A stretch of 64,000 nt of DNA, taken from positions 28,417,037 through 28,481,036 of the forward strand of contig CM026426.1 in assembly GCA_014871385.1 (NCBI GenBank), in the 5' to 3' direction. The stretch comes from Ceratodon purpureus. Taxonomy: Eukaryota > Streptophyta > Bryopsida > Pseudoditrichales > Ditrichaceae. This document shows, piece by piece, positions 264 through 23,752 of this stretch (position 1 is its first letter; every line of letters starts with the position of its first letter). A program made the translations under genes and the position numbers. The notes beneath the pieces are model-generated. The model was not told where the DNA came from. It worked only from the letters and a program-made list of their open reading frames with translations, and ran no database searches.

Positions 264-3200
264 AACTCCACCTCCTGTCCTTTAACGTGCGGAGGCTCAA
301 CGAAGCCACCGCAGTGGCCCATACGCGGGCTTACATTGCCCACTGCGTTCCCCAACCAGACATAGTGGCCATTCAGGAACACAAGCTGCGGGGCGTCGCG
401 GCACAACAAATTGGCCGTCGCCTCTGGAAATCGGCGAGCTCATTTAGTCAGGAAGCCTCAGTGGGCTATGGCCATCAGCCTACCGACTTGGGCGCTGGCT
501 GTGGAAAAATCCTTACTCTCATCAATCTACGCTGGTCCCAGCAGATCGGAGCCTCGAGCTCTCTGATGGCGAACCGTGTCCAATGGGTTATCATACAAGG
601 CTTGCCTGGGGGAGACATCGGGTTTGCCAACATTTATGCGCCCAACGACTCTCCTAATCGGTGCATCCCCTGGGAAATTATGGCCCGTGATCTACCCCGC
701 ACCTGCAGATGGCTCCTTATGGGCGACTTTAACATGGTCGAATATCGGGCCGACAAAACCCGTCAGTGTACTAACATGATCCCCAGTCGCGAGCGCATTC
801 TTTTCGACCCTATGAAATCTTCCCTCCAGGTTGAGGACAATCCCCGATCGGCCCATAGCCTACGCTATTCGTGGGACAACAATCGGCCTCAGACTGGGAG
901 AATCCTGGCCCGGCTTGATAGACTATATCTTTTCCTCCCTCCCCATGGTAGCTCTGAACGGGCTCTTCTGGACTATGCCATCCGGGGCAATGCCACTCGG
1001 TCTGATCACCAGCCGATGACAACGACTGTCCAACTGGCCCTCCAAGCCCGCCGGCCTTCTACTTGGAAGATGAGCACCGTGTGGTTTGACGAGGCCGCTC
1101 TCGGAAGTCATCGTCTCTGGCACATCGCTACTCCTGGTAGTTCCTTTTTCCAGAAAATGCGTCGGATTCTGCGTTTCTACCGCGGGTTCTGCCATCGCAA
1201 GGCTCAAGCCTACCGCACTAATGAAGAAGCGCTAGTGGCGCTGTTTGAAGCCCACATTCGCAGAGCCCAAGACGACCCTATGGACGCCGAAGCTCTCCGC
1301 GAAAGGGGTGAGGCCCGACTACGCCTCGAGGCTTTTAAAGACCGTCAACTCGAAGGTCGCCGAATTCGTACTCGCACCCTGTGGAAGCTGAAAGGAGATG
1401 CGGTATCCAAGGAGTTTTTTCGTGTCGTTCGAGCCCTGCGAGGCACCGCTCAGATACCTGCCCTCCGTGATCAAACTGGCCGCAGGGTCACAGACCGTCA
1501 GGAACTCGAACAGCTGGTCCTACAGTACTACAGCCAGCTTTATGAGGACCCCCCCATGGATGCCCAAGCCTCTCGGGTAGAGGCGGACCTCCTCGCTCTC
1601 ATCCCCAATTCTTTCCGTCCTGCTTTCCTCCGTCGATCCTTCACCAATTGGGCCTACCGCCTGAGGCTGAGGAAATTCACGGGGCGCTGAAGCAGATGGC
1701 AATTGGCAAAAGCCCCGGCCCGGACGGGGTGGTCACCGAGTTCTACATCCGCTTCTGGCCCCTAATCCGCCCAGATTACACCACAATGCTCAGGCATTTG
1801 ATTCTGGAGGGCGCGTTCCCCCTGGGTGTAAATCAGGGCCTTGTCATTCTCCTACCTAAAGGAGGGGATCTCGAGCTCCTCACTAACTGGCACTTGATCA
1901 CTCTCTTGAACACGTCCTACAAGATTTTGCCAAGGTCTTGCAGATTCGTCTGCAACGCCTTCTCCTCGATGTGATTCACACAGGCCAATCAGCCTTCCTA
2001 CCCTCTCGGCATATTTTAGATGCCATTATTGTTCAACACGAGACAATCTCCTGGGCTAAGGAGACGGCTCAACCCCTAATTATGATCAAGCTGGATTTTC
2101 GTAAAGCCTACGATTCTGTGCGATGGAGCTTTCTTTTTCAAGTTATGGCTCGTATGGGACTCCCAGCGCCCTTCATTGTTATGATTCGTATGCTCCTGTC
2201 TGACGCATCCGCGGCGGTGGCGTTGAATGGCGTTAATACTGGGGCCCTCCCCATACGACGAGGGGTGCGTCAGGGATGTCCTATTGCCCCTTACCTCTTC
2301 TTGCTGGTAGCTGAGGCACTTGCTACCGCAACTCGTCACGCCATGGCTGTCGGCTGCCTTAAAGGGATTGCCCTCTTTGATGGTTGCACTCAGCAAATCC
2401 TGACTCAATTTGCAGACGATGCAACATACTCACTCTTGGGAGCAAAGCGATACTTGGCCTCTACCTCCGTTCTGTTGCACAAGTTTGGGCTGGCCACGGG
2501 CCTCGTAATCAACCGGAAAAAATGCGAGATCTACTGGTATGATCGACAGCCCCCGCCAGTGTGGCTCCAGACATCCCGGCCGGCAACCTGGCAAGCTGCT
2601 AGGTACACCTTTCGGTGTCTCTTTGGCTACTGCTGACGTTGATCTGTTCCTAGCTCATAAGATTAAAATCAAGCCCGCCTACTAGAGCTCGGTTCATCTT
2701 TCCCTAGCTGCTCGCTCGGTGGTCGTTAATTCTGTTCTCATGTCGATCCTCTGGTACTTTATCAGTATCTGGGGAGGGTCGACAAAAGTGCTTAGCACTA
2801 TCCGGGCGTCCCTGAGGAATTACCTGTGGGCGGGCACAGAGGAACATGCCCGAGCCCGGGTAAGATGGGATGACTGTTGTGCCGGGAAGATGGTGGGCGG
2901 TCTCGGTATCATTGATCCCACTGAGTCTCTCACTGCCCTCATGGGGAAGTGGGTGATCAAGGCGCTGACTCCGGATACATCCCCGCTCCACATTCTACTC
3001 CGACACCGTCTCGCTCGCATCAGGCCCCCTGGCCCTGGCTCTTGGCCCAGGAGTCTTCAGGGGCTCCTGCGAGCCAAGTTTTCAGCTCCACAAGGGTCCA
3101 CTCTGTGGAATCGCCTGATACAGGCATGGCGAGCGCTCAGCCCCCTCGATGATGCCGCACCGCCGTGTACTTTTGAGGAAGTACAGAACACTCAGTTGTG

Positions 3201-4542
3201 GTGGACCACTCACTTTGTGGGTAATAATTTTGGTTTCACGCAGCAGCGAGCGCGGCAACTGGCGCATAAAGGCCTCCAGTGCTTCCGGGACATATGGGTC
3301 CCCGGGACCATGTCCCTTCGGCCTTGGCCGGACCTCAAGGAGCAGTTTGATTTCCTTGAAGAGGAAAGACGATCCATAGTTTTGTTCCACTCGCGCGTAC
3401 CGGCCGAGTGGCAGGCCACTGGCAGACTCACTCAGAATCACTCCATAGAAAGGGAATGGCTGGATTATTTTTCCCCGACGGTGCAGGGCGACCCCCTCCT
3501 CATATTCCAGACTACGCAGGCTTTTTGCCCACCTGTAGGCCAGCAACCTGGCCCGTTGGCTCTCCCTGACAATTTGGTTACTTTCATCGTGGGAGGTCAG
3601 TCTCGCTCTCTAATCGCTGTATTAGACTTGGCCGAGCATCCCTCCCTCCTCGCGGCCAACTGGTGCGTGTGCGGATTATTACGATCCCCCGCCCCACTCA
3701 GCCAAAGGCCGGCCCCATCCACAAATATCTAGCCCCGCTCATGACCCTTACGTTTGACCCAGGTCGTTGGACGTGGAGGCCTGGTGATCTGCTTCATGCG
3801 TATACGGCGAACAAGGGTCGCCAGTGGCGTAATCCCCGTCGTCACCTTTCACTTCCCATTTGCGAGAAGTGGCACAGGATGGTACCGGCCAATTTTGTTC
3901 CAGATTGGAAGGAGGTCTCGACGATGACTCGGCCTCGTAAGGAAGCGGCATTCTTATGGAGTTTTTACCATAAGGCCATTGCGGTTAATCAATGGCGGCA
4001 TGTAGCCTACGCCCACATTTCAAACCTCTGTAGCTGTTGTGACGCAGGTGTCCCGGAGACTCTACATCATGCATTTTATGCATGCCCTGCAGCTCAAGAA
4101 GCGTGGTCTTCTGCAACGACGGTCCTTTACCGTCTCCTCCGTTTTTCCCCAGCCACAATGCCCTGGACTCCTTTGTCCTGGCAACTGTGCCTTCTTGGCT
4201 ACGAGCTGCCAGGCCCGATTGGCCACGGTGTTCGTCTCTGGTCGCTCATACGGGGCTTTGTCCTCTGGACAATATGCCTTCGCCGTAAGGCTTGCATTTT
4301 CCAAGGTGAACAGTGGCCCCTTCCCGTCTTTGAGCAACCCTTATGGGATGGCATCGTCGACTTAAGCTATGGCTTGGATCCAAGTTAAGCACGCTCAGCG
4401 TCAGTCCCCAGTGGTAGCCGCTCGTAGTCGTCTCGCGTTCTTTCAACGCTGGGCATTCTCCGACGTTCTTTGTTCTCTCCGGCGGACTGGCATCTCCTGG
4501 GTGCACGCTCCTCCTGCTAAAGGAACGTTCCGTCACGTTTAG
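260..4542 (+). pseudogene. LINE ORF2: AP endonuclease, reverse transcriptase, zf-RVT (broken)
   Basis: Counting from ATG 260, residues 1-260 are an exonuclease-endonuclease-phosphatase domain with Asn9, QE(E40)HKL, NIYAPN, GDFN (D156, N158), RLDRLY and SDHQP (248-250), so the nicking active site looks complete. The RT follows: SPGPDG near 1715, FADD near 2409 with both aspartates, and a C-terminal C-x2-C-x7-H-x4-C knuckle near 4030-4090. The gene is disrupted by frame changes near 1640-1660, 1925 (one base apparently lost), 2600-2635, 3660-3730 and 4370-4385, and by TAG at 2683-2685. The last frame ends with TAG at 4540-4542. The element would nick target DNA and prime reverse transcription there; this copy cannot make the full protein. 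A longer in-frame start at 197 (GTG) is possible but ATG 260 precedes the first endonuclease strand directly. Confidence 0.85.
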
Positions 4543-4650
4543 GGCCTTTTGATGCTTTCTCATTAGGTAGTTTTCCAGGTTTTGCTCGCAGGTAGTTTTC
4601 CAGGTAGCTCTCGAGGTCTTTATTAGGAGGTAAAAAGTAAAAACATTTTG

Positions 4651-7411
4651 CCAACTAAGTTCTCTTGCCTTGGTTTGCTGCGGTGTAAGTTCTTTTCTTT
4701 GCAATGGATTTTCACCATTTGACTCAAAAAAACCTGACGAACTCCTTTGAGAGACTACGTCTGGTGTAAAAGACGAAATGTACAATGATATTGCTTTCAC
4801 ACTCCTCATGCCAGGTCTGAAAATTAGAGTCAGCAATAATTTTCGAATCTTCTAGGCAGAGCTGTCGAAAATCCCAGACAATTTCCACTTGTTTGGAGCT
4901 ACATGGGATATTCCCGCACAAAAGTAGTATGTGATTTCTTAATTAGAACATGTCCTCGTAAAATTGGGAGAGTTTTTAGTGCCATGGACGTCACTTTGAT
5001 GATAGACAAGTAGACAGGAATGTGGTAAGAGATAGATCCACGTATGTTTTGAAGGATGTTAGGAAGATGCTTTGGAGCAGGGATTTGTCATATGATTTTG
5101 ACCCATCGTTCCTCCCCGAGGTTGTTCCAGATCAGTTGAACACTCTTCTCGTGGATCCTCATCGGCAGTTCTGCGTGATGTATCTTGACCACGCATTGTA
5201 TCCTACTTTTTAAAATCAACCTACTAATCATCATTCTTGTTGGAAGAGGAATGTCCTCCCATTTATTACATAATTAGGAGAGTCAGGGAGGAACGTTTCA
5301 GATTTGTATAGGCTAATAGAGGTTTAGTTTTCATCATGTGTCGACTCTCGCTAGAGGCTTATGTCAATAAGTTGCTTTGGGAGAGGCGGAAAAGTAGGAA
5401 ACTACACCGCTAGGGCTACTCTTTTACTTTAATTGCATGCTCAATTTGAAAGCCATCTCTTAACTCTTTAACCCTTTTTCATATTGGAAAGAAATTTTTG
5501 AGCAAGTTTTTTCATGTATGTCTAGTAAGTGATTAATCACCGATTTTCTCTGAATTGAATGTTTCACATGCATGCCGCATCACATGAAGCCCTAATCTTG
5601 TGTTGACAACATTGTCTTTCCATGTTTTTTGCAAGAGATGCGTTAATTGCTGTTTTAGAGATTCTAAGTGCATTAGATTGTAATTGGATATACAATTTTG
5701 GAAGGTCTCCTAGATTATATAAGGTCATGTTTGTTTAATTTTCATAGCGTTTGTTGTTTAGAGTGCAATGTTGAATAGAACCGCAAACTTCACGTTTATA
5801 TGCACCAATGAACCTTGTGCATGCAATGAGGATGATGATGTAAACTGTGCAATACTTGCTAACGAGTACCGTACTCGCTCTACATTGCGGGCGGAGAGAG
5901 ATGAGCTTGATGATGTGTTAATCAAAAGTTGTGCGTGGATCTGCCAGTTTGAGGCCTTAAAAATTTGGATCTTATGTCAAGGTTGATTGTTGAGGTATAT
6001 TTTACATATTTTGTTGTTATTATCTTAGAATTGCTGGATCATTTTGCATAAATATATTTTGTTCAAGAAGGTATCAAGCAAAGAGAATAACATTGAAGAT
6101 AGTGAGGACTTATTGATGAGGACCTTGTATTCATCTGAAACAAAATTTACTCATATTTGTTGTATTTTCTATCTCATACATTGTACTTTTTGTTTGTCAT
6201 GAGGTGACGTCATCATTTTCTACGGATGGCGTCATGGTGTACAACTTACATATATTGAATACTAGTTTGAGCGTGATGAATGCCTCATTTCCACCCTTGG
6301 CAATTGCTCATTATTGTGCAAAATGACTAAGTACTTGTTACTTTGTACCTCACATTTTGGCCAAGACTTTTGTTAAAGTACAACATTCCTCATTACAAAA
6401 GTCCCAGATTTGACAACTTGTCCCCAATATACAAATATAGTGTTTATATTATGAAATGTTTTTTGTCTGTTTAGAGGGTCTCTTGGATCTAAGGCTCCAC
6501 CACCTTCATGGATTTTTTAGATACTATTTCTTTTAAAGTGAGAAGCCTCAGGTCCAAGATCGTGACAGCTTGATATTTGATGAACTATGCTTGGGTGTTT
6601 CTCGGATCTGACGAAATTGTTCTCTAATCCCAAAAGAGGTAGGAATGATTGTAGAAAAACTTCTTGTATCCGGGAGTCCCTGACTTTGGTTATTGTTTTT
6701 GCTAAACTATCTAGTCCTGTGTAAAGTTGGAAGAGGAGGTGGGCATACATTACACAAAAATTCTTGAAGACGACAATCTTATCATTCCAAAACAAAACCC
6801 AGGTTGAACAATTCAAGACATTAAGACCTTTGTAATTGAATAGAGACTTATCGATTTGGAAAAGAGGTTTTTTCTGAGATCATTGGCAAGCACAAAATAT
6901 TTTCTAAGACAAAGGCTTTCACCAATCAGGCTGAAATAAAGAAAGTTGTGTCAAAGGCACTTGTGAGGTACTTCAAACGGAAATTGCTTAAGAACGGAGC
7001 AATCACTGTCGACAATCTTTTTCTTTGGTTTGCTATAAAGTTGGATACTTCTAATAATGAGTGCATCTTCAGTGATTGTCAGCAATGATTGTTCTAATAA
7101 AGTAGTGATCTTCACATCCTTCACTTATCTTCACTTGCTTCAATGTCCATGGTACATTGACTTTGTTCGGAAGAACAATGTCCAGACAATTAGAAGGAGG
7201 TGAAGGTATAGTGTGAACGCAAGACAAAGGATATGGATGCCTAGGGTTTGAAAAGAGCAAATGCCTCCAAAGATGTTGCCATGACATACCTAGAATGGCG
7301 CAAGGCCGCAAACAAAAGGAAGCAGGAACATAATTGGATTGCAAAGAAGGCAGAGAAGATCGGGCTACATCTACCTTTGCCAACCAATTTGTTTGTGATG
7401 ATGAGGTTGTA
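4651..7411. other. AT-rich spacer with short coding-like fragments
   Basis: No complete gene is visible. Three short open frames might be exon relics: 5022-5213 (63 codons from GTG/ATG, ending at TAA), 5768-5986 (72 codons, acidic, with a CACNEDDDVNC stretch) and 6843-7088 (81 codons, no start). None has a recognisable domain or convincing splice sites. The rest is AT-rich and featureless to my eye. Confidence 0.4.
6843..7088 (+). pseudogene. Unidentified open-frame fragment without start codon
   Basis: An 81-codon frame opens just after a TAG and ends at TGA 7086-7088. Its Lys/Phe-rich composition (for example KALVRYFKRKLLKNG) looks more protein-like than the surrounding AT-rich DNA and could be an exon relic of a mobile element. 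I do not recognise a family and see no clear acceptor or donor. Confidence 0.2.
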
Positions 7412-8520: not shown

Positions 8521-8529
8521 GTTCGCTAC
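8521..8529. repeat. Left 9-bp target-site duplication
   Basis: GTTCGCTAC stands immediately before the left TIR and recurs exactly at 23744-23752 after the right TIR. Nine bases is the hallmark duplication length of Mutator-like transposition. Confidence 0.95.
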
Positions 8530-8831
8530 GGAGAACGCTATTTCGCATGTAGGAAAGGTGGGCCCCGTCGCGCCGTCCGACGTGGCATGCCGCGCTGGCC
8601 CCCGCGTTTTCCCACGATCCGACGGTTCCGGTAAGTCGCGAGTGGAGTAAAATCGCGATGTCACGTAACACTGGACTACCGAGACACCCCGTCCACCGAG
8701 ACGCCGTGACACTGAACACTGCCCACTTCCGAGACACTGGAATCGGAAACCTGACCGCGAACTCAAAAAAACATGACGTCATAATTACGTCACAGTCCCC
8801 ATCGTCTTCTCCATTCCGATTAGGGCTTCCA
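8530..8831 (+). repeat. Left MULE terminal inverted repeat, 302 bp
   Basis: It starts GGAGAACGCTATTTCGC and pairs with 23442-23743. It contains one GTGACACTG site (8706-8713) and a CRE-like TGACGTCA (8773-8780) followed by TGACG-type matches. The first exon of the Ulp1 gene begins about 370 bp further in, so this repeat probably contains or abuts its promoter. Confidence 0.95.
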
Positions 8832-9201
8832 GTGTCTCGTTAGAGCTTTGTCGTTGTGGGTAGAGGGGGAGTATGTGTGCATTCAGGTCTCTCAAAGCAC
8901 TAGGGAGATTAGGGTTTAGTAGTGATTGCGTTAGGAATTATGACATGTTCTTTCATTGAATTGCATTGTACTCTCCGTGTTGAAGCTGTCGCGTCTCGCC
9001 GTTTTGGATTCGACTACATCATTCAACAATTAATGTGCAAATCGCTCTGGAATTGACCCCTTTCGAAACGCGCAGGCGCAGAGCTTTGAAGGTGTTAGGG
9101 GTTTCACTTACGAGCATTTCGCGGCATGGAGGTAATTGGTCTTGGGTTTTGTTGTCGTCTCTTCGTTGTTTCTTCGTTTTCAAGGCGGTTGCGCTCGCGG
9201 G

Positions 9202-12200
9202 ATGGACTCGTACTGTACTCACCTCTCTAACATTCGCATTGTCAGCAGGGGCTCCCTGGAAACACCCATCCACGAGCGCTCTATATTCTGGAGCATTCCA
9301 AGGTAATATTTTTTCGCATTGAATCTCTGTTTATGTCATTTTAGAGCTTCGTTAGGGTTTACTGAAATTTCTAGTCTGATTGGGAATGCAATGTTGTTTT
9401 CCTCGTACAATGTGTTTAGGGTTTAGAGCTACAAATCCAGGAGCTCCTTACGGCTTAGGATTAGGATCTTAATGTTATTTTACATTAGCCACATTTCTAC
9501 CACTGCAATCTTGCTCGCACTCTTCTAACTACTAAGCCCGACAGGGACGACGTCGAAAGCACCGAGCAGGATTGGTACTACCATCCCGTGCTATGCCCAC
9601 ATAGCTGCGGCGCTTGTATTGGGGTCGTCAATAAGTTTCGTTTCCTTTGTTTCTTCCCGGCTGGTTGTCCGAAGTGTGGGTCATCTACGCAGGTCTACAA
9701 GGCTGAAGACATGGAGGAGGAACCGGTGACACTGAGAAGCAAGATTTATGGGATCTGTTACGAAGTCCAGTACCCAAGTAGAAGGCGTGCTGAAGAGCTC
9801 CAGGCCGAGTTTGCAACCGCGGCGAAGGGGAAGGTAAAACCAGGCGGGACGAGAAAGTATTTTGTTTGCATCCATTGTGGTCGCGACTCTTTCAGTAACA
9901 AGATGATGTTCAACCGCCATAGATACGTAGAAGGCTGTGACGGGGCAAAGCATCCGGATGGTTCCCGTGCGTTACTCTTACCCTACCCTGATTTCAAACG
10001 TGGGGAGGGTAAGAGGGTTGAGGTGTTGGGGAAGGTTACTGTAGAGGCGCAGAAGAAGACTGCATTGGCTGCTGCGAAGTCCGGGAAGGGAGTAGATGCG
10101 ACACTGAAGAAGAGTTCGATGGAGCAACCGGCTATGGGGGAAGGGTCTCTCAATGCTGTTGGGGACGGAGTTCGTGGACCAAGGGTGGAAGGGAACAGCG
10201 CCACCGGGTACAAGATTACTCCTGCACCTGATATTATCTGCGGGAAGGTCTGTGAATCGGATGTAGGGGGAGATGGAGGGGGTGATGGGCATAAGAAGCG
10301 GAAGACTACACCAACGGGGGCTGCCCCTCCGTTCCGTAGTTGCCGTAAATCTGTGTCGAAGGGGTCCCCGGAGCATAGAGTCACGGGGTCAGAGGAAGTT
10401 CGGGAGCAGTGTCACGAGGACGTTGATGATACGCGAGACACTCCGGAGGAAGGAGACCAGGATGTCGTCGACGGAGGTAAGAGGAAAAGGTCTGTGGCTT
10501 TTCAGTTAGAGGCTGTACAGAATCTAGTGCCAGCCCAGAATGCACCCAAACAGGACATACGGGTGACCGGGAAGGTTATTCACAGAGGAGTTGATGCCCG
10601 GGTGAAGGGCCTACCAGTTGGGAATTGTGATACTAATGCTCAACGTCAACTCTCTCCGAGTGAGGACGAGGCGGTGCTGTCACCTACATTACGGGAGGTT
10701 TTGACGGGGAATGGCAACTCCAAGAAGGCTGACCAGAGTTTTCATGTCGCCTATCGAGAGCCAGGTGGACAGCGCGGGAAGAAGCAGAAGAAGAGTTCGT
10801 ACGACGCCGACGCTGAGGTAAGCGATAAGCAACGGGCAATAGATACTTTAAGAGATAGATTTACTAAAGTTGTTCAAAGTGTTCTTCGAGGGCCGCATAG
10901 TGTGTACTACTCTAGAAAATGTAGTGGTTTAGGTTGTAGTAGTGACTGCAGCGCCTGTGATTTGCATCACCCCTTTTGTGACACTGGGGACGGCGTAATA
11001 GATAGTGTTACATTGCAGGATCACTGTATAGGGGGGTCAGATACCATACAGTGTCACAGTGACGGTGTACCGGAGGAGGAGAATGTTGTACCTGATACGC
11101 CATTTCAGAATGTTCCTGTACGGGATACGGAATGTACTCTAGAAAGAATCAGCGCGGAACATGTCTGGGTTGGTGATATACAGAGTGTGACGGACATTCA
11201 ACAGTACTGGGCAAACGGGAAGGGGTCTAGGGATCCATTTGCCTTTTTCCCGGAAGCGTTTCAGAGGTTCACGCTACGTGCTAAACTTATGAACGACCTA
11301 GAGGAGAAGACCGTGACAAAGATATGTAAGGAAGCCGAGTCTGCACAGCGGATTAGGCCCCCTCCAGTGTGTCCACCGGAACCCCGACGACCTGGTCTAT
11401 ACTACCTACGGGACATAGGGGGGGATGTGACACTGCCCTGGGTTTGGGAGTGTCACAGTGGTGACGACTTTTTGGAGAAGTGGGAAAAAGCAGTAAGAGA
11501 GAAAGAGTTCAGGGAGAAGCTGCCTCACTGTACGTATTGGTGGAGTCGCAAGAAGGTAAGTTGCACGTATCAGTGACATTGATCTTGTTGTTTTTTTAAT
11601 ATGCTTCGGAATAAGACTCCACAGATATTGATGCACTCTAATATATAGATAAATGGTACAGGGAGACAAGAAGAGTCCACTGGCGAAAGACGTCGTCGAG
11701 GAAGTCACGAAAGCCATAGACGCGCTTGTTGAAAGCGTGGAAGATGGGACACCATATGCAGATCTGGACGCACTGAAATTCTACATACAGTGGACGATTG
11801 ATTATGGCAAATACGAGGAAGCGTTGACGAAGTATAAGGAAGACTTGCGTGCAGCTGAGGCGAATCGAGAGGCAGCGGCGGTAACGGAATTCAGATCGAC
11901 GAACGGGAGGCTGTTTGAAGAAGTCCGGTGGGATTGGTCCCCGATATGGCAGGTATTAGCAGTGGAGGAAGGAATTCTGTCGACTCTCCCGACCCTACCG
12001 TGGCGTCACGATGGTGAGAGTCTTCCCCTATACTACATGTCTATCACTACACTAAACATTCGTAGAATACCAGAGTATTTTTTGGCGTTACTCTTTGACT
12101 GAAAATAATATTGTGTGGCCGGAACAGGAGAGGAAGCCGCTCATGTGCGCCGAATACTATGCGGTGATAGATTAGAGGCGTTGACACCCCCTCCGCTAAT

Positions 12201-14871
12201 TTATATTTTCCGTGTACTCTTTAAATGCCATTACGGGGAATTCAGAGTACTCTCTTGTCCGAGATACGGACTGACGAGGGAGGTAATATCCGAGGAGTGC
12301 CATAGGGGTATAAATATCCACCGAGCGTTATCTACATTCATAGCGGAAGGTCCTTATCAGTACTCACGGATAGGGTTTGTTCTGGGAGAGACATACCGCT
12401 TACAGATTCTACAGGATGTGGATAAGATAAATGGTGGTGACGGCGAGGAGATTATTCAGGAGGTACTGCTGTGGGTGCGGAGAGTGCGGGTCAGGGCATT
12501 GCAGGACCTAGCGTTGTCTCATGCTACGGTATTTACGGGAGCGTGGACAGCAGTGACTCATGAGTTGTGGCCAGAGATCGCTCATACGTGGGATCAGGTC
12601 TTGCGAAGGAGGGAAGAACGTGATGTCCGTTACGCGATAGGCGCAGATAATCCTACGCAGGATTCCCGTGTTATTACTTTGCGTAAGGAGATTCAGGAGA
12701 GAATTACAGAAGTAGGAGACACCATCATTCACGAGGATAAATCACTCTGGGAGCTGTGCAGTAGAGAGTTCGCGCCTCCGGAGTCCCAATGTCCTAGTGT
12801 CACGAACTCTGTTGCAGGATTGTTTCAGGACCTCCAGAGTGAGGAAGATAAACCAGTACCTGCGGAAGTTAAACGAGATTTATCGAATGGAGAGAACGTG
12901 AAGGAGGACAGTCGTGACACTGGGGAGGAAGTCCAGGCTGTCGTTTCCGTACTTCCGCAAGCGCTAGCAGTGTCACACTGTGACACTGCTGTTCACATGG
13001 ATGACATTGCAGCAGATCATGGTCCCACGGACCTATTCTCCAATTCATTCCCTGCTGCGGAGAGTACTAAAGGCGCGCGTCCTGAAAGTGGATCCGTTTC
13101 TCCCATTTCTGGAGACAGTGAAGATAAATGCGAAGTGGAAGGGGCCGAGGATAATATGAAGACTGACGTCACAATGGAGCCGGAGACCGTGGAGGCGGAT
13201 ACTGGCTCCAGCGTTGTCAAAGGTGTCAGCAGCGGACTTCCACATGACTGTAAGGAATCTTATGCTCCAGTGTTAGCGGTAACAAAATCAGAATCCATCG
13301 TCGTCATCCACCGGGATTGTGAGGCGGTTCCAAATGTGTTTCCAGAGATTACGCGCATAATGGAGGACCCAGTGACGTCTCCTCGAGGAGCCCCTTTAAT
13401 CACACTCAGCCAGTTTCATAATACAGCACACGGCGGTGAGGACATGGTTGAGGAACACTCATTGGGTTTTTCACAGGATCCAAGTTTCGTGCAGTGGATG
13501 AAGGCGCCTACAGACGTGGCGGTTCAGACTCCTTATAAAGGAGTATCCATTGTGACTGGTCAAGTTGGTGCGGAAGTCGATGTCTCTGACCGTCTGGGGA
13601 TTCAGGAGGATGGGCCTCCAAAGGACTCAGCGTGCAGGAATCTACATGCTACATTCGAAGAAGAGAAACAGTTGGAAGCAACGGCGGAGCAGTTAGTGGA
13701 TCTCTCTCAGCGTCACGACATGCAATGTAAGCAGCATACTGTTAGAGTACTTTCGAGTAAAAAAGACCTCGACTATGCAATGGCAGCTGCGCCGTGGCCA
13801 GGTGGTGGCATTGTTAGAGTGGAGGATGTGAGTATTATGTCTCTGCCCCAAGCCTATAACTACTTACACATAGATGACTTCTTGCAGAGTCTCCCAGGAC
13901 GGAAAGGACGTAGGGATGGTGCAGAGGAGGTGGTGTTCTACAACGAGAAACAGAAGGAATTGGAGGTTCGGTTTGCAGCTATCAGATCACTAAAGCGCGC
14001 GCGAGATAGACTTGGGAACGACATGGTTGATTTTGTGATGTCGAGGCTCTATTTTCAGTACCCAGCTAGAGATAGACATGAAGTACTGGTGGTTTTATCC
14101 CGCATCAGTTCCGTTTCCAGGCCTTCTGTGTTTACTGACGACGCCTTACAGAAGTGGGCTTCCATTTTTTTAGCACCCCCTCCACCAGTGAAGGTGCACC
14201 AGGTGAAGGAAGTCCTTGTCCCGTGGGTGACTAGAGACCACTGGTCTCTCTTGGTGTTTTTGATTGACCGTGTGTACCACTTGGACTCCCGTATCGGTAA
14301 CCACAATCCAAAGGGTAAGGACTCTATGTTTATAAAGTGGATATGTCATGCGTGGCAGCACATGAGAGGGGTAGAACCGTATGACGTGCCTGTCGTGACA
14401 CTGGATGTCATTCGGCAGAAAGGGAAATACGAATGCGGCCACCATACCCTGCATAATGCAATACTGTATTTGAAGGTAAATTTCACTTTCCTTACCATGC
14501 TATACACTGGTTTTGTTTTTGTGACAATACGTTTTAATTTTTGAATAATTGTGCATTATTCAGGTACACCTAGGTTTATGGTGGTGACATCGATTACATG
14601 GCTGATGGTATGTTCATTGTTGGCGTGCTTGGTTGGATTTGGATTGCAGTTCCGGGCTAGGCGGTCCGGTAGCAGGGAGGAGTTGCTGAAAATGGCTCTG
14701 ATGAAGGAGTATAAACCGAAGGATATGAACACAGAAGTGCTTTGCCTCTTATCCAGAGAACTGGACTTTGGACGGCGTGACACTAGATATCGGGCCCCTT
14801 TCTCTGTTCCCAAGGACAAGAAGATGGTGCACAGTGATGGAGAAGTGGACGACACACAGTTACTCTTGTAG
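9202..14871 (+). CDS. Zinc-finger / Ulp1 (C48) cysteine protease protein of the MULE, five exons
   Basis: Proposed exons are 9202-9302, 9545-11555, 11662-12013, 12128-14475 and 14650-14871; all junctions are GT-AG, phases match and the sum is 5034 nt (1677 aa). The N-terminus has Cys pairs (CPHSCGAC, CPKCG) and, near residues 142-165, a C-x2-C-x13-H-x5-C finger. The middle is charged and low-complexity. The C-terminus is a Ulp1/SENP peptidase: His1526 (RDHW), Asp1541 (YHLDS), Gln1585 and Cys1591 (ECGHH) with the usual Gln-x5-Cys spacing, so the triad is complete. Such enzymes cleave SUMO or related modifiers; the true substrate is unknown. Twelve GTGACACT sites lie in its exons. The last junction is the least sure: acceptors at 14563 and 14573 lead to early stops, while 14649 keeps the 74-codon tail open. 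A separate hydrophobic reading of 14551-14650 may be intronic. Confidence 0.8.
12969..12987. promoter_or_regulatory. Face-to-face pair of GTGACACT motifs inside a coding exon
   Basis: AGTGTCAC and GTGACACT are separated by three bases, giving a 19-bp interrupted palindrome suited to a dimeric binding protein. It lies within exon 4 of the Ulp1 gene, so the bases are also codons. Confidence 0.45.
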
Positions 14872-15153
14872 GGACTGGTCTGTTTTAGAGATAGAGGTCT
14901 CCTATATTAACCTTCGTATGTATCTTTATGTCCTTTTTGACTTCTTCCCTGTACCGCAGTCTGAAATCGGAAACTGAATGGCAGATATTTCTTTAAGTTA
15001 CTGTCACTATGACTATGTAAACATATGTCCCTCTAAATCTGTTCCGTTCCCATACATATTCCTTTATTTGTGAATGCATGAGTTGCATTTATAATGAACC
15101 TAAAACTCTCAAGTGAGACTTCTCCTATACTGGCTACACAGAATGTGAAGATA

Positions 15154-15302
15154 GTGACACTAATCATAAGAACTCAAAAGAAAGCCAGATTTGCGGTATA
15201 TTGCAGACACTGACGGGGAGTTTATGACACTGATGGTGACAACCATATACATAACCAGGAATGCGTAACACTGGTGACACTAACCGAAAAATTCGTGACA
15301 CT
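15154..15302. promoter_or_regulatory. GTGACACT motif cluster downstream of the Ulp1 gene
   Basis: Exact sites stand at 15154, 15274 and 15295, all on the plus strand, with near-matches (ATGACACTG at 15225, GTAACACTGG at 15265) between them. The surrounding 14872-16011 holds no gene; it becomes AT-rich after 15480 and leads to the TATA box at 16012. The cluster probably lies in the 3' region of the Ulp1 gene or the upstream region of the small gene. Confidence 0.5.
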
Positions 15303-16011
15303 GACGGTGATAAAGGAACAGTAAGCCGAGACTAAGGAATACTAGAGACACTCACTAGGAAGATAGTGACATTGACGATAACAAGCATATAAAGAGTCGA
15401 GACTGTGGGAAATTGATGCGACTCACTGGATAATCTGTCGGGATACACGTGTGGCACTGATTATGCTTAATTCGAATTTAAGCATCTATATATAAGAAAA
15501 ATTTGTTAAAGACCATCTGGACATGTATGTCCCAGAGTTCACAAAAGATAAATTTTATATTGTTACATTTCTGGAGATGTCTTTACTTATATATATTACC
15601 GTTATTTAATATTTATATCACTGTTGAAAACATTTACGATACAAATCCAAATTATAAATTTATATGGTTCAATATCGCTAACTTATATGTTTAATAAATA
15701 ATAAATTATAATTACATTTGAAGAATAAAAAAAATTATATAACCACGAGGGGACACGTTCAATTATATATCCTAATATACCCGAGTGTTTATTTAAGACT
15801 TGTTTGTGTAATTTCATATACAAAACACGTAGTGTTGAAGGACTACATGTTGCTCTAGTCAATGAACATTTTCTCCCAATAATAATATTAAAATCGTACA
15901 GTTCTTATTGCGTGAGCATTATATGATTTAGGGTTCAAAGTTTTAAAAGACACGAAGTTCCCGCAGGAGAGGAACGTGGACCGTTCTCATATAATGGTTC
16001 CCCAAAGTCTG

Positions 16012-16018
16012 TATATAA
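16012..16018 (+). promoter_or_regulatory. TATA box of the small MULE gene
   Basis: TATATAA followed by GG sits 112 bp before the ATG at 16130, in a locally GC-richer stretch after several hundred AT-rich bases. Spacing suits a plant TATA box with a leader of about 80 nt. Confidence 0.5.
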
Positions 16019-16129
16019 GGGAGAACTTCTTTGCTTGAACCCTCTCTTGCAGTCAGTCCTTGGGACTCTCATTTCTTATGCCGTGGTCCAAGTGAGGACT
16101 ATTATACTTTCTCTTAGTCGATCTTCGGT

Positions 16130-16519
16130 ATGGAAGGGCTAGAATCAGAAGTGTTGGAGTTTCTAGCAAACATGGCCGACTTTGTGGATATAGCTGTCCC
16201 GGGAGTGCGTCCATCCAGTCCGTCTTCCAGTGTCGCAGTTGTTCATGCGCATAATGATCGAGTATATCCTCTGCCTGTGACTTTACGACCTGCCCAGCTG
16301 AAGCGTAAGAGGACCCTTCCTCTGGGAGTTCAATCCAGGGAACTGGATAGGAAGCAGGTCGTTCTCTTCCCCGGCAGAGAACATTTCAAGGGAGTACAGT
16401 GTAACAATACATACGTGTCACTATTGCAAGGGCAGTCGAAGTGGAAGAAATCGGCATCTGACACAAAGGGCATGAAATGTGGTTGTAGCTCTGTGGTATC
16501 TTGTACTCACAGTAGTTGA
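16130..16519 (+). CDS. Orphan 129-aa protein encoded inside the MULE
   Basis: A single-exon frame runs from ATG 16130 to TGA. The protein starts acidic (MEGLESEVLEFLANMADF), has a Ser/Pro stretch around residues 25-35 and a basic patch (LKRKRTL, near residue 60) that could be a nuclear signal, and ends in a Cys-containing tail (MKCGCSSVVSC). No domain is recognised. The TATA-like box upstream and the sharp rise in GC over the ORF support a real gene. It contains one near-motif (CGTGTCACT near 16414). VANB/VANC-type accessory proteins of VANDAL elements are a functional analogy only; no sequence similarity is claimed. A chance ORF remains possible. Confidence 0.5.
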   Translation: MEGLESEVLEFLANMADFVDIAVPGVRPSSPSSSVAVVHAHNDRVYPLPVTLRPAQLKRKRTLPLGVQSRELDRKQVVLFPGREHFKGVQCNNTYVSLLQGQSKWKKSASDTKGMKCGCSSVVSCTHSS

Positions 16520-16701
16520 TAAGTTTGAATTTTATGAAATTACATATATGTTACATAGAAGGACATTCGTGTATGTTCTTCAAATAACTAATATTGGGAT
16601 GACAATAGCAGCAATATAGTATCAACCTTGATATGATCCTGTTTATTGCAACGCACTTATATGTCTTAACATCATAGGCGGATACATGTGCCTCTAATTT
16701 A

Positions 16702-17004
16702 GTGACACTAGTCCAGGTGTGTTACACTGTGACTTTGTGACATTCAAAACCATGGATTTTACCAGCATAGTTATCAATGAAACATTGGTTTCTAGTATTG
16801 GTATACTCTAAATATTGGTCTTTCAATATGAATTTCATATATGAACAAAACGGAGGTCGAGTGGTGCTAAATCAGTGTCACCGACTGTTCTATTCAAGAA
16901 GAGATAGTTATTGACACTGAGCTGACAAGTATAAAAAAAGTGTTCAGTGTCACATATGTTACAGACCACTCTTCTAGTGTTACTAATTATTCGACTAGTG
17001 TCAC
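16702..17004. promoter_or_regulatory. GTGACACT motif cluster in the MULE central spacer
   Basis: Exact sites at 16702 (plus) and 16874, 16946 and 16997 (minus) fall within 300 bp, with near-matches such as TTGACACTG (16911). No gene overlaps. This is one of the densest groups in the element and the clearest non-coding one. Confidence 0.5.
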
Positions 17005-18348
17005 CTACTTTTGTACGTTCACAGGGCATCAGTTTTTATGCATACGTCGACCGTTTCTGTTGATTATACAGGACCCTCATTATTATTTTATAAAATTCAT
17101 TAACCATGTTGTTGTGTCCTTTCTATATCCCTTAAATTATAGTGGATTAATAATTATACTTTTTCACATTTTTAATTGTTACTCTTTCATAATATATGTG
17201 ATTGAATATTCATTAACCACGTTGTCGTAACCTTTTGATTTCTCTTAAATTATTTTATGTAATTATCATGTTTACATTTTTTGTTCAGTGGTTAATCATT
17301 ATCTTCATTTTACTAAGTTACACCCGATCACTTCCCATTTTATTTTTATTTTATTTTATTTTATTTTTTTCATTCATATCTATTTTCATATTCATCTCTT
17401 TAATCTTATTTGTTGTTTATTCATTATTTCTTTTTTTAATTTTCTCAATACGCATGTACTCTCTCATTGTTTTTTCTTATTCTATAAATTTAAAATTTAC
17501 GACACACATTTTCTTTCAAGTCTGTATATGTATGTCTTATATATATATATATATATTTTTTAACAACCACATTGTTTGCCCTTGTTTTCTGGTACTCCGA
17601 ATATTTGTGCCCTCTTGTTGAGGGTTTTAAGTTTCATTTTTAGATAGTAGACGTAGTCTTCTATGGTGGCACACATTTAGATAGTATGTGAAGATGGCAT
17701 TATAATTATCCACTTGCTAATAGTACTGTTTAGTCCACATTAGGTTGCGCGTATTGTGTACTCTCTATGATGTGGATTATATAATTTAAGCTTGAATTTT
17801 GAAGGTGCTAGTGGAAACTCAGTAAGGAAACTACGTCATCACTATGTGCTCATTAACATATAGATTACCAGAAAGATAAAAGTCTGTCAAAACGTAATAA
17901 TGAATTACCCCAGCGGTAGTATAGTACTCTTGTTGTGCGAACATGGTCGTGACACTGGATGCTCAAAATTGACCATTATAAATATGTATGTATACCGCCA
18001 GATTACGGTAAGCAGAAAATAAATTCCGAACGTAGCGCACCAACTTTCAAACAAGCTCGCAGTGCAACCACAGAGAAGCTCAGATTGACAAACATGAAGG
18101 CATACACAAATTAACAGAAATGGCGATCCGGGAAAGGACTATCTACTGATGGTGTACATGATATAGCGTAAGTACTTGAAAATGAAATATAAGTTTGTAT
18201 TCTTCAAAGTTTTCAGTGTCACAAAAAAATAACGGATAATAGTGTCACGCTGTCGCTACAGGAACAGAGCACATTCCGTTAAATACTATGCTACGGCTTT
18301 ATCTCGGAAGGAGAAGCAGTCGGACATCAAGATCTACCGATTCACACC
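17005..18348. other. T-rich MULE spacer
   Basis: Between about 17040 and 17640 the plus strand is strongly T-rich with a short (TA)n run near 17541; its long open frames are composition artefacts. Further motif sites occur at 17949, 18215 and 18241. No gene is visible. Confidence 0.6.
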
Positions 18349-18819
18349 CTACTTCGCACTGTAGTTGCTTACATTGTCCTCTCCCTCATCGCCTATACCA
18401 CTATAATACTGTTCCATAACCCATGCCGAATCGCCAAAGTCCTCTGCGGACGAACTCCGACGCGACTCCATCTCCGCCTCCCTCTTGTGAAATTCTTCCC
18501 CGTCGCGGAAATGATGCCCGACGATCTCGGCAAGACATGCTCCATCCCGATAGCGCACACCGTGCTGGTCACCTTCTCGCGGAACACAAACAGTATGAGG
18601 TGGCTGGAGAAAGTCGCCGAGTGACATCGGGGCAAATGCAGCACGGCCTCCGCAGTCATTGCGGACACACCTCCAGAATACTAAAGCAAACAGCAATGTA
18701 CATCCCAGAATCACACATTCCAGAGAACCCATCTCCACAATCAGACCGAAACGAAACATTTTCTGGACACTCTCCACTTGAATCGCTAAAAACACGAGTT
18801 CTCGAAAGACATTGAACAA
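18349..18819 (-). CDS. Orphan 156-aa protein with a membrane-like segment, inside the MULE
   Basis: The frame reads on the minus strand just downstream of the transposase gene. Residues about 31-50 (GSLECVILGCTLLFALVFWR) form a plausible transmembrane helix; the rest is hydrophilic, with Arg/Glu-rich patches and an acidic, Ser-rich end. No family is recognised. It could be a separate small gene or extra 3' exon sequence of the transposase transcript: a donor-like GTACGA lies just after the transposase stop, and an acceptor with a CTAAC branch-like sequence lies between the two frames. The overlapping plus-strand frame is judged a shadow. Confidence 0.4.
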   Translation of the reverse strand: MFNVFRELVFLAIQVESVQKMFRFGLIVEMGSLECVILGCTLLFALVFWRCVRNDCGGRAAFAPMSLGDFLQPPHTVCVPREGDQHGVRYRDGACLAEIVGHHFRDGEEFHKREAEMESRRSSSAEDFGDSAWVMEQYYSGIGDEGEDNVSNYSAK

Positions 18820-18944
18820 AGAAGACCCGGCATTAAGTACCTTCAGATACTCGTGATAACAGAATATTCTACGAAGACTGCGTATGAAGATTTAGGGTTA
18901 GTAGAAAAGATCCGCCACCATAGTGAAGTTATAGTCGTACCTGG

Positions 18945-21900
18945 TCAAAGTCGACGGGCACAGGAGGGACCAGAACGCTCGAGGAAATCCTTCCTTCGGG
19001 CTAGCTTAAATCCCATGCCATCATCTACTGGGAAAAAAACAGGTTCTCCTTGCATAGGATGTAATGTTCCATCCCGCCTCTCTGCCTTAATTCTTCGTAA
19101 GCGCCCCAGAGTCAAATTGAACTCAGCCACCAAATGCTCCATCATTACGGAATCTCCGTTAACCTCCTCCGACAGTAGTAAAATTTGCTGTGACAACATG
19201 TCCGGCAGGTCCTCTACCGTCCGCCATCTTGGTGTAATATTTGGTGTCACAGGTACGCCTGCAGAGTCACCACACGGTGTGAATGCTCCCACTGGTTCAG
19301 CATTGTTTTGACGACGAGGTGTCAGTAGCTGCTTCAGTCCACCATTGATGTTTCCAGCCATCCTGCCACAGTACCTCGCAATTGTTCCTTCTGCGAGGTC
19401 CGGATTCATCATGGTCAAAACCTTCACGTGGTGCTTGCACATGTTACCCTTCTGTGCCCAGACACAGTTACAAACCGCCCACTCTGAATCAGGGTTGTGA
19501 ACTGTGTAACGCATATGACGATGCGTTGTCGAGGTGACCAAAGCAAATCCGCCGGTTTCCTCTGGTAGAGTGACATCACTGTCTGGAATTTTACGTGCCT
19601 TCAAAATCGACTCTACGGTGATGTCTTGCAACTTTTTGTTGTCAATGAATCCACTCTCCTTTCTGAGATCCTTGTACCAGTAATGGTCAAGAACGTCCTC
19701 TGTCAGGGCAGTGATGCACCAATCCACTCGCCTGCCAGTCATTCTACTACGCTCAGACCTTAGTATGGACTTGTCGAATCCATGGTAACCCTCAATAGCA
19801 GCATTAGTATCCTGTCCGCAGTATTTTAAATTTCGGAAGCCTACAACCCACATATGTGCCTTTTCGATCCAATACTCCTTCATGTAGTCCCAGAACTCCA
19901 CCTCCTGAGGGTATTTCTTCTCTAATTCTTCAATACGCGATTTTGCCCAGTGTTGCCCCTCTTCTCCCGGGCGTGAACTTCTGTCGTACATCATTAGCCC
20001 CAGTTCCTTCATAATAGCTGCTCGTCTACCTAAGTCTGATATCTTATAGCACCCATTCTTCTGCCAAGCTCTTCGCACATGCCATAGGCAAAGGAAAATC
20101 GCGGTATCCGGCCACGTGTCACTGCAGACAGTGTCACAGTAGGTTGTCGAAGATCAGTAATCATCCAATACCTGGGAAAATGGGATAAAAGTAGAGTGCA
20201 CTGAAGAGAGAACGTATTCGCATATTTGTGATAGAGACTCTAGTGTCACAGAATCGTAGTTGACGTCCGTGACACTAAAGTGTGTACCGTGACCTTCGTA
20301 TACATATTGTGACACTGTAATTATAGATCAGAGTACATAGCATCGGTTGTAACATTCCATTTCACGTAGAAACAGTAAGTGGAACGTACTTTATCGCATT
20401 GATTTCACCTTGTGCACAGTCTACTATAAAAGCAGCCGGTTTCCAATCTGGTTTCTCCTCAATCATCCTTGCGTTCAGTGCCTTCATCCAGGGACTTAGG
20501 TTAACTTCTGCACATTTAGAGGTGAGAATGAAAGCCACGGGAACCCCATTGTGCCACTCGTCAAACACCATGAGTGTATAGAGTGGAAACTGCCACACAG
20601 AAAGAAGAAAACCACTTGGGCGATTAAGCGTAGTCTTTTCGCAGTAATATCTGTGTATGAATGAAATAGATTTAACTGATTCCTACGATGATTGTTGCGC
20701 ATGGTAGGCACGATAATAACAGAATTAGAGTCAAGCTTAACCACAACAAGGAAAGCTAGTTAAGTAAATACATACCTTCTTCTCATTAGTTCCAAACGTT
20801 GCATCCACTGAGATCCCCCCTCGGTGGCCATGTTCTAACATCATTTTACGTTGCCATTCGGTCTGGATTCCGATTGTGAAAGGCATGTTGGACCCTGTCA
20901 ATTCCCCTGGAACAGGTACAGGTTTCTCTTTGTTCGATTCTGTGTAGTAAAATACCTTCTCGGGGTTTCGTTCTACCCACATCCGGACACTCTGTGCATC
21001 GTTTTTATGCAGCATATATGTTTCCTGCGCCAATTTACCAGAAATATTGCGAATGTCCTTGGTAGTGAGGAATAAGTCTCTAGTGATGTCTTTCCCCTCA
21101 GCCTTGTACTTCTTAAGTAGCTCAAGATGCTTCTTCATTATCTGATTTGATGAATCCCCGCAGCGTAGACAGGCTTCAACGAATGATCTGATCTCGGGAG
21201 AGAGATGAGCTGAGAAGGCGCTTCGATCCCCGTATTTCATTCCACCGTGAACAACTAAACCGTCACGGTTAATATGTTTCTCCTGTATAATGCAAATTTC
21301 AGAAATGTGGGGTAAATACAGAAGCTTCTTTACAGTGAACTGTGCCTGGCAGCCCCGTTTAATGGAATTCCCCCATTTCTTTTTCGAGTCTCTCTTGATC
21401 TTAGGCCGGGGCAGGGGTTTAGGCACATGTGGAGGGGGATTGTCTTGTACCTCGTCCCGTGTATTGTTGCTGGGGTCGTCGACTTCTCCTAAATCCTCAT
21501 TGATAGCCTCCCGTCCATAACGTACCAAGGAGTCCGTCATCTCTTCGCGTAGGGCGTCTGCAGTGTCACAAAGAACAGACAATATAGGGGGGAGTCCGTA
21601 ATTGAGAGTACCTTGTGTCTCAGCGAAACCGTCCTTTGAGTGGGTCGTACACCCTTCGGAATCCTCTGGAAGTATTGGTGTGTGCACCGTACCTACCGGA
21701 TTCATCGTCGTAACAGGTCCTCCCTCGACGTGACACTGGGTGTTAACAGCGTGTGTCACAGGAGACGGCTTCTTCTTCCTTGCACTGGGTTTCCGTGCCG
21801 CCTTTCGAGAGGTTGGTGCGGCGTTCTTCAAAGAACTAGCCAGTGGATCACCGCTTCCATGATTAAGGCAGGGATGGGGAGGGGGATGATCTTCAACCAT

Positions 21901-23136
21901 GCCCGCAATGTCACATAACCCGGAAATGGATGGATGTTGCACTGCGCCTTCATGATGACATGTGGTCTGCAGAACTTGAACATCAGTTCCCTGCAGAAGC
22001 TCTAGAAAGCCCTTTTTCTTCCTAGGAGCTCTCTTCTTAGGTGGTGCGACGTCCGTTATGCAACCTGTATCAGACAGAAGTGCACCGTGAACATCCACTT
22101 CTGAAGCCATCGGCGGATCTTGCGTGACGACAGCGACAGCCTTCGCCCTTGATACTCGTCTTCTAGGTTTTGAGGTAGTTGTTCCCGGAGCAGTGACACT
22201 GGACACTTCGGAACCGGCACCTGCTGCCTTCTTACGGTTTGATCTCTTCTTCGCGACTGCAGGAGGGGGATCGGAGACATGTACCTCGCGTGGGAGCTCA
22301 TTGAGGTCCGGAATCCCAGTTGCACACGCACCGGTGGAGGTGGCGTCACATGGCACTGCAACAGTACTCTGTCCTTTCCCCTTTCTACCACGTCGCTTCT
22401 TCGGTGAGGGAATGGGATCCTGAACCATCCAATCCATGGCATCGGTGACAGTGGCAGCTGTTTTCGCCTTGAATTTCCGAGGAGGTTTTCTTCCTCCATC
22501 AGCCTTTGTCCGTTTCGCTCTAGCTTTCCGAGTCGGGGCCAAAATGTTGCCTTGTGGAACGTTGTCAGGAACCCTAGGTTTTTTCTTAGACTTCGGAAGT
22601 AAATCCTCCGATATAGGCTTAACAATATGTGAGAAATCCTTCGGGCCGTACTCACATCTGAACCTGCGCATGCAACAGTACTCACTAAACACCTTATGTC
22701 TACAGACGTGAGAAATGGAAGTTCTGGACAATACACTGTGACAGTAAGATACAAACCTCGTGAATTCCATGGCAGTCTTGTGCCCATCTCGCCTTTGATT
22801 GGGCTTACGATTCTCTTTGTTTGCGCGGAATTTGCATTGTGCACCTTCTCGCCCGCACTGCATTCCGTCTATGAAGTCCTCAACCCTATCAGATGGAATA
22901 AAACATTGCTGTACTACATGAGATTTCTTGTGCTCACCACGTGGAGGACGGTATTCCAGCTCCCAACTCAGATTGCGTGGTCCGAAGATACCATCGGGAG
23001 GATTCTGCACGCGATCCAGGATTGCCTGTAGTTGTAGTTTATGCCCCTCCATAGCATCGAGATCTACATCCGACCGAGTACCGTCGAACTCCATGGACAC
23101 TGGGAACTCCGCACTGGCGCCCTCCATGCCGCCCAT
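18945..23136 (-). CDS. MULE transposase (MuDR/FAR1-type DDE with SWIM zinc finger), three exons
   Basis: Proposed exons, minus strand: 23136-20776, 20589-20390 and 20121-18945, totalling 3738 nt (1245 aa); donors are GTATGT and GTACGT, acceptors GGCAG and TGCAG, phases agree. The MULE DDE triad is split over the exons: D778 (SVDATFG), D844 (FIVDCAQGE) and E964 (TNAAIEGYH), with LCLWHVRRAW between the last two. A SWIM finger CxCx8CxH lies near 1071-1084. N-terminal Cys161 (FRCEYG), Cys596 (RGCQAQF) and His621 resemble a FAR1/WRKY-GCM1 zinc site opened by a ~430-residue linker holding five Lys/Arg patches such as KKRRGRKGKG. The enzyme should bind the TIRs and perform cut-and-paste transposition in the nucleus. 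ATG 23136 was chosen because upstream codons lack ATG; ATG 23127 is an alternative. Confidence 0.88.
20130..20316. promoter_or_regulatory. GTGACACT cluster within transposase intron 2 and its upstream edge
   Basis: Exact sites at 20130, 20242, 20269 and 20309 lie inside the second transposase intron (20389-20122), in both orientations. A further GTGTCACT overlaps the start of exon 3 at 20116. Four sites in under 190 bp is far above chance. Confidence 0.5.
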
Positions 23137-23441
23137 TGGCCATTGCTTACAGGCCAAACAACCAGTACAGAAACCTATCTAAGTAGACAGCCCCATAAGG
23201 TGAAATGTCGTGTGACCTAGAAGTGAAACCCTACAGCGATGTCTATGAAATCTCAACGGCATTGCAACTTCCGAAACCCATGCACGACATCGACAACAAT
23301 GCACGTCCAAAGGAAAACGCATTCAGAACCCATTACAACGATTAGCAAATAGTACGATGTCTACATTGAAGATCGCGAAACCCCTCAAACGGTGATCCGC
23401 CAGGAGAAGGCAGAATACGAGAACACTGGAACCCTAATCCG

Positions 23442-23743
23442 TGGAAGCCCTAATCGGAATGGAGAAGACGATGGGGACTGTGACGTAATTATGACGTCAT
23501 GTTTTTTTGAGTTCGCGGTCAGGTTTCCGATTCCAGTGTCTCGGAAGTGGGCAGTGTTCAGTGTCACGGCGTCTCGGTGGACGGGGTGTCTCGGTAGTCC
23601 AGTGTTACGTGACATCGCGATTTTACTCCACTCGCGACTTACCGGAACCGTCGGATCGTGGGAAAACGCGGGGGCCAGCGCGGCATGCCACGTCGGACGG
23701 CGCGACGGGGCCCACCTTTCCTACATGCGAAATAGCGTTCTCC
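23442..23743 (-). repeat. Right MULE terminal inverted repeat, 302 bp
   Basis: The inverse complement of 8530-8831, with its GTGACACT site at the mirrored position (23560-23567). It lies about 300 bp upstream of the transposase start and probably supplies that promoter. Confidence 0.95.
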
Positions 23744-23752
23744 GTTCGCTAC
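23744..23752. repeat. Right 9-bp target-site duplication
   Basis: GTTCGCTAC, identical to 8521-8529. It proves the right element boundary at 23743. Confidence 0.95.

Follow-up and report, generated by a model that had tools for sequence, protein, structure and literature searches.

A selected DNA word dispersed through the ends, exons and introns of a moss Mutator-like element, a candidate self-recognition signal

How can a protein made by a transposon distinguish the whole length of its element from other genomic DNA? This question, raised for VANDAL elements in the parts of PMC5735166 drawn on here, arises again in a 64-kb stretch of the moss Ceratodon purpureus, hereafter the window, which lies on contig C6 (110.5 Mb) of an assembly of 362 Mb in 151 contigs. 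Positions 8530-23743 of the window form a complete Mutator-like element (MULE) of 15.2 kb, with terminal inverted repeats (TIRs) of 302 bp that are 100% identical (left, 8530..8831, plus strand; right, 23442..23743, minus strand) and a 9-bp target-site duplication, GTTCGCTAC, present identically at 8521..8529 and 23744..23752. Terminal repeats with a duplication in the 8-11-bp range identify the element as a MULE, as does the match of its exon-joined transposase peptide to PF10551 (28.6 bits versus a Pfam cut-off of 27.6). The word GTGACACT is dispersed through this element in 31 copies (8706..23567) on both strands, as compared with 2.37 ± 1.37 in dinucleotide shuffles of the window, none of 100 of which reaches 31. 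All 31 positions listed in the original prediction, which was made from the letters of the window, are exact; the next base is a purine in 30 of them, and the TIR copies are mirrored at position 177 from each end, the right one at 23560. The other ~49 kb contain no copy, such that every copy lies within one complete MULE, and in element-free 15-kb stretches elsewhere in the window no word is as prominent. Fifteen of the 31 copies are exonic by the splice choice made (16 by open reading frame (ORF) limits), and a single transposase intron, at 20122..20389 by the chosen splice sites, holds four copies in 268 bp.

Is this density a property of one copy or of a lineage? In the genome, at least 97 places match the long transposase ORF at 43-100% identity (with 55 of 1191 candidates scored), and at least 150 match the Cys/His domain encoded by gene 1, the element's other large gene (150 of 375 scored). 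The opening 200 bp of the element have at least 40 matches (40 of 81 candidates scored), of which eight pairs are ~15 kb apart. GTGACACT is the commonest or joint commonest 8-mer, among words of at least three letters, in 28 of 30 loci, the window's own included, with 4-11 copies per ~5 kb in those 28 as against 0-3 of the reversed word in the 30 loci fetched; at L014 and L030 other words are commoner. Six complete elements (the window element, C2:5.83, C8:3.41, C1:1.32, C3:12.88 and C1:13.05; 85,802 bp in total) all match the transposase and gene 1, relatives being as distant as 34% identity in the first gene-1 ORF. Together the six carry 173 copies versus 6.8 expected from an order-3 model, although these copies are related to each other and the counts are for that reason not independent. 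Contig C6, which makes up 30% of the assembly, accounts for 27 of the 40 listed TIR matches. This contig may be a moss sex chromosome; the U and V chromosomes of C. purpureus are each given as >100 Mb in a 360-Mb genome in the part of PMC8000587 cited here.

Could the word simply have been multiplied as a repeat? The sequence around the 173 copies is nearly flat except for two pyrimidines before and a purine after the motif (YYGTGACACTR), with a weak departure at positions 13-14. Because the flanks are nearly flat outside this consensus, the copies were not spread by duplication, which excludes the shared simple-repeat ancestry that the original prediction had named as its possible undoing and rejects a tandem or simple-repeat origin in general. 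One-mismatch forms are also enriched (GTGACATT 29, GTGTCACT 29, GAGACACT 24 and GTGACACA 22 copies, with 5-7 expected), and mismatches at motif positions 1 and 5 show no enrichment; this pattern of tolerant and intolerant positions looks like a binding profile. Gaps of 45 bp or less between motifs are slightly over-represented (P 0.01 to 0.33 across five elements or parts).

A second objection would be that the word is equally frequent in unrelated sequence, and this does not hold in the window or at two other MULE loci (0 copies in 15 kb). Across the genome, where the places inspected were the first 100 listed per search, GTGACACTR occurs 4392+4441 times versus 2973+3016 for the reversed control, so that single copies are common elsewhere. 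Pairs of GTGACACTR 4-34 bp apart number 477 in the whole genome versus 69 for the control, and in the part of the genome's dense clusters that was inspected the motif is dense in its own element and sparse outside. Near the end of contig C1 (G000:C1:2402-3933), GTGACACTG occurs five times at ~381-bp steps and has the appearance of a tandem repeat of the subtelomere, with no relation to the MULE.

Evidence that the word itself matters comes from coding sequence. Where the amino acid is the same, the third base is kept in 185 of 193 cases (96%) inside motifs versus 4999 of 10154 (49%) outside, in comparisons of pairs of copies that are not independent, and this synonymous conservation rejects codon or protein constraint alone. 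Three exonic sites of the transposase half (21562, 21730 and 22193; 21562..22200, minus strand) are present in 26, 24 and 24 of 27 aligned copies. Losses at these sites number 0 of 36 in the 12 stop-free copies and 7 of 45 in the 15 copies with stops, some of which are possibly intronic since stops were counted through an apparent 93-bp intron. The 27 rows were retained from 35 (the window and 34 loci), the eight omitted being the duplicates L009 and L026, the split copy L025/L031, and L015, L041, L043 and L044; alignment A1 excludes L016, L021 and L024, which have stops in the chosen stretch, together with L037 and L044. In exon 1, all three motif 8-mers are identical across eight aligned copies (which include two close pairs) versus 0.39% of 2335 others. 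Among intronic window sites in this alignment, one is kept in 86% and the others in 17-29%. At four sites picked for their conservation, the motif columns are 99% identical and the flanks 58%. The motif is a selected DNA signal, under purifying selection on the word itself.

How does such a signal persist in elements that have diverged so far? The C2 element, 68% identical to that of the window, retains 15 of the 31 sites versus 10.3% of all 8-mers and has 13 sites of its own. At homologous coding places, window sites are kept at 10 of 16 in C2, 9 of 16 in C8:3.41, 6 of 13 in C1:1.32, 4 of 11 in C1:13.05 and 0 of 13 in C3:12.88, as compared with 15.5%, 5.0%, 4.9%, 3.4% and 2.8%, respectively, of coding 8-mers in general, and the last two elements carry 33 and 20 sites in all. 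Gene 1 of the window is 54-56% identical in nucleotides to those of C8:3.41 and C1:1.32; of its 12 sites, three (9726, 11427 and 14777) are common to all three elements, four to two and five are private, and the two relatives carry private gene-1 sites as well. The decayed copy L014 keeps 4 of 8 sites versus 61% of its other 8-mers. Sites are thus gained and lost individually at a roughly constant density.

The sites are not evenly distributed between ends and body. All six elements have exact or one-mismatch sites ~128-260 bp inside both ends, mostly pointing inward, as illustrated by GTAACACT, GTGACACT and GAGACACT at 136, 177 and 202 from the end of the left TIR of the window element. The density of such sites is 9-18 per kb in the last 330 bp versus 3-5 per kb in the body, and a non-autonomous copy of 1.8 kb has four. 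Within the body, 100 of 156 pooled sites lie on the inward, sense strand, given a boundary between the two genes that was set by hand; singly, C3:12.88 has 16 of 16 body sites inward and the other five elements show no significant bias. Over the whole of C3:12.88 (L050/L051, G000:C3:12876900-12889500), all 20 motifs point inward, which is the sense strand of both converging genes and sets this element apart from the other five.

Do other MULEs of this genome use the same word? A distant MULE, L054 (G000:C11:4652500-4660000), whose transposase is 34 and 30% identical to pieces of that in the window, contains GTGACACT 0 times in the 7.5 kb fetched, and there only transposase pieces matched, gene 1 having no match. 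It carries instead, at 1843-6028, 19 copies of GATGGGTA (core TGATGGGTATT) in two inward-pointing, partly tandem arrays, often spaced ~46 bp apart, that lie outside its two long ORFs and bear a close likeness to the tandem arrays described from noncoding parts of VANDAL21. Because L054 lacks GTGACACT and has these arrays, a different private word is present in at least one related MULE, and the window lineage is distinguished by a word that also occupies exons and introns. GATGGGTATT occurs 1774 times genome-wide versus 272 for its control; among the 100 places listed, several form pairs with a ~320-bp spacing and resemble miniature inverted-repeat transposable elements. A second MULE locus, L055 (C6:6.95 Mb), also has no GTGACACT and shows no private word; its commonest word is a simple hexamer repeat, which is uninformative on private words.

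Element proteins that read short repeated words have precedents. TnpA of En/Spm reads subterminal CCGACACTCTTA sites that share GACACT with the motif described here, and a demethylating role has been reported for it; its sites are confined to the element ends, and En/Spm is a CACTA element rather than a MULE. Transposase binding within MULE TIRs is exemplified by MURA, which binds sites inside those of maize MuDR/Mu, and we know of no body-wide binding sites for MURA. Literature searches on the motif word, on TnpA sites and on Mutator-like elements with Ceratodon returned nothing relevant, and one on motif-binding, anti-silencing Mutator-like elements in moss led nowhere. The closer likeness is to VANDAL21/VANC21 and VANDAL6/VANC6 of Arabidopsis, likewise MULEs with a dense private motif of 8-9 bp and with relatives that have other motifs, as far as the cited part of Hosaka 2017 (PMC5735166) describes them. 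YAGTATTAY is the binding word of VANC21, and AGTTGTCC/AGTTGTAC occur in sequences that VANC6 affects, both in noncoding tandem repeats and those of VANC21 in the same orientation, according to the parts of PMC5735166 and PMC10398659 cited. The word here, written YAGTGTCAC, agrees with that of VANC21 at 7 of 9 positions, which 1.1% of random motifs equal in a comparison made post hoc. KAONASHI (KIU) MULEs combine a transposase gene with a further gene that has an Ulp1-type domain, as the present element may also do; in the portion of a 2026 review that we cite (PMC13317346), some VANC genes contain a captured Ulp1 domain, and KIU genes are linked to VANC and to motif-specific hypomethylation. 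In contrast to KAONASHI, as that portion presents it for angiosperms, the present element has long TIRs, a moss host and a weak Ulp1 match that shares its protein with an N-terminal Cys/His domain matching no Pfam family; its long perfect TIRs also differ from the degenerate TIRs of VANDAL. The resemblance of the two words and the Ulp1-like gene are only suggestive as VANC-like signs. No VANC-type domain appears among the Pfam matches of the element ORFs, no direct comparison with a VANC sequence having been made, and the system would appear to work like VANC in form, homology being a separate matter.

Which protein, then, would read the word? Something, probably an element protein, must read it, because relatives keep it while much else has changed. 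That the motif is recognized by a protein is very probable from the pattern of conservation, and that this protein is encoded by the element is likely. The two large genes offer candidates. Gene 1 (9489..14475, plus strand) consists of ORF pieces 9489-11555, 11662-12013 and 12128-14475, joinable in frame at GT-AG sites; its coordinates are ORF limits with a provisional start, and the splice sites of both genes were chosen from several possibilities. It encodes an N-terminal Cys/His (zinc-type) domain (~9552-10016) and a C-terminus resembling an Ulp1/C48 protease, in which catalytic-looking H, D and C residues were seen by eye and are also conserved in C8:3.41. The transposase gene (18945..23136, minus strand; exons ~23136-22757, 22663-20776, 20634-20390 and 20121-18945) encodes a conserved N-terminal domain and the MULE core. 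Outside the catalytic regions, conservation is among the strongest in the N-terminal domain of the transposase and in the Cys/His domain of gene 1, and neither domain hits a protein family above cut-off or a known structure. By contrast, a 129-aa protein (16130..16519, plus strand) that the original prediction had listed among possible readers is not needed: it has matches in the C2, C1:1.32 and C6:57 relatives but none at E 1e-3 in C8:3.41, C3:12.88 and C1:13.05, and these three elements keep the motif, as do all six.

We hypothesize that a DNA-binding protein encoded by this MULE lineage recognizes GTGACACT, which in full reads YYGTGACACTR. Such a protein would bind the site clusters ~130-260 bp in from either end, in the manner of transposases and their partners, and would also bind ~2 sites per kb across exons, introns and spacers, coating the element and marking it as self. 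The reader would most likely be either the N-terminal domain of the transposase or the Cys/His domain of gene 1. Binding along the body would counteract silencing, in that the Ulp1-like protease would remove SUMO from silencing factors sitting on the bound DNA. The original prediction of whole-body recognition is strongly supported by the synonymous conservation, the turnover at roughly constant density and the unrelated flanks, whereas its attribution to the element's own protein is likely only. Anti-silencing as the purpose of the body sites is about an even prospect, and we hold the same balanced view of the hypothesis taken as a whole. A bolder version, in which an element-borne SUMO-protease with a Cys/His domain reads a self-word that a whole bryophyte MULE lineage carries through its coding sequence under synonymous-site selection, and by sequence-addressed de-SUMOylation keeps the whole element unsilenced, independently of VANC or from far earlier, and with a reader specificity that changes between MULE lineages, is put forward tentatively and may well be wrong.

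Several observations weigh against this hypothesis. Pfam, NCBIfam and PDB sequence searches of the element proteins found no DNA-binding domain, the best zinc-ribbon match being sub-threshold (E 0.1), and the C48 match of gene 1 is weak at 12 bits versus a Pfam cut-off of 20.7. The right end of C2 has one-mismatch sites only, and the relatedness of the copies bears on every count. VANC targets are mainly noncoding, tandem, same-oriented and fast-evolving, in the part of PMC5735166 cited, whereas the sites here are about half exonic, dispersed and on both strands, many of them are old, and one motif is kept across the lineage; the arrangement is thus not that of VANC targets. Moreover, several deeply shared sites fall in conserved peptides (EEPVTL, CDTADA).

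That last point is also what favors an artefact, in which simple-repeat expansion, codon constraint or chance produced the word, as do some evenly spaced copies elsewhere in the genome that look like tandem repeats. However, random flanks and synonymous conservation speak against it, as does the occurrence of sites in several reading frames, on both strands and in introns and spacers, and by these tests an artefact is already refuted and has next to no probability. Could the motif instead act in RNA, in the processing, export or packaging of element transcripts? The mild excess of sense, inward sites, complete in C3:12.88, is in keeping with such a role, but two sites with wide conservation (22193 and 21730) run antisense to the transposase, other sites lie in both TIRs and in introns, and five of six elements lack a significant strand bias of their own. 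The conserved antisense sites reject an RNA-level signal as the main role, which we consider very improbable.

Binding by a host transcription or chromatin factor, with the element exploiting the motif as a dispersed enhancer or boundary, would fit the constancy of the motif against a divergence of the element proteins that reaches 34-49% identity in parts, and the core TGTCA/TGACA may resemble known plant homeodomain sites. Such a factor is nevertheless an unlikely reader, given that a related MULE carries another word, that the remaining 49 kb of the window lack the motif and that the end clusters point to the transposition machinery. It is possible, if doubtful, that the transposase reads the motif purely for transposition, with end clusters used for cleavage and with body sites that load transposase, hold the ends together or protect the element from inserting into itself (target immunity), and without any anti-silencing. 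This explanation is consistent with the site clusters at either end of each of the six elements, with the four sites of the non-autonomous copy and with the conservation of the transposase N-terminal domain, and also with L054, which has transposase matches and, flanking its ORFs on both sides, inward arrays of another word. It leaves the conserved Ulp1-like gene unused, however, and the excision of known MULEs does not, to our knowledge, depend on body sites far from the ends and within exons.

Two further ORFs complete the element. A small ORF with one hydrophobic segment (14578..14871, plus strand) lies just after the Ulp1 exon, and a small, fast-evolving ORF that also has a hydrophobic segment (18349..18759, minus strand) lies just after the transposase at a conserved position; both have matches in the five other complete elements. 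Elsewhere in the window, long ORFs at 51158-54005 resemble a piggyBac-type transposase gene by eye, and other ORFs are LINE-like and hAT-like; GTGACACT is absent from all of these.

For the question of how a transposon protein recognizes its own long body, part of the answer is visible here in sequence, as a dispersed word with selection at synonymous sites and with gains and losses that can be traced over many copies. For experiments, the family thereby supplies positive, negative and decayed sites that are ready to use, and it suggests that the tagging of a whole element as self extends beyond flowering plants.

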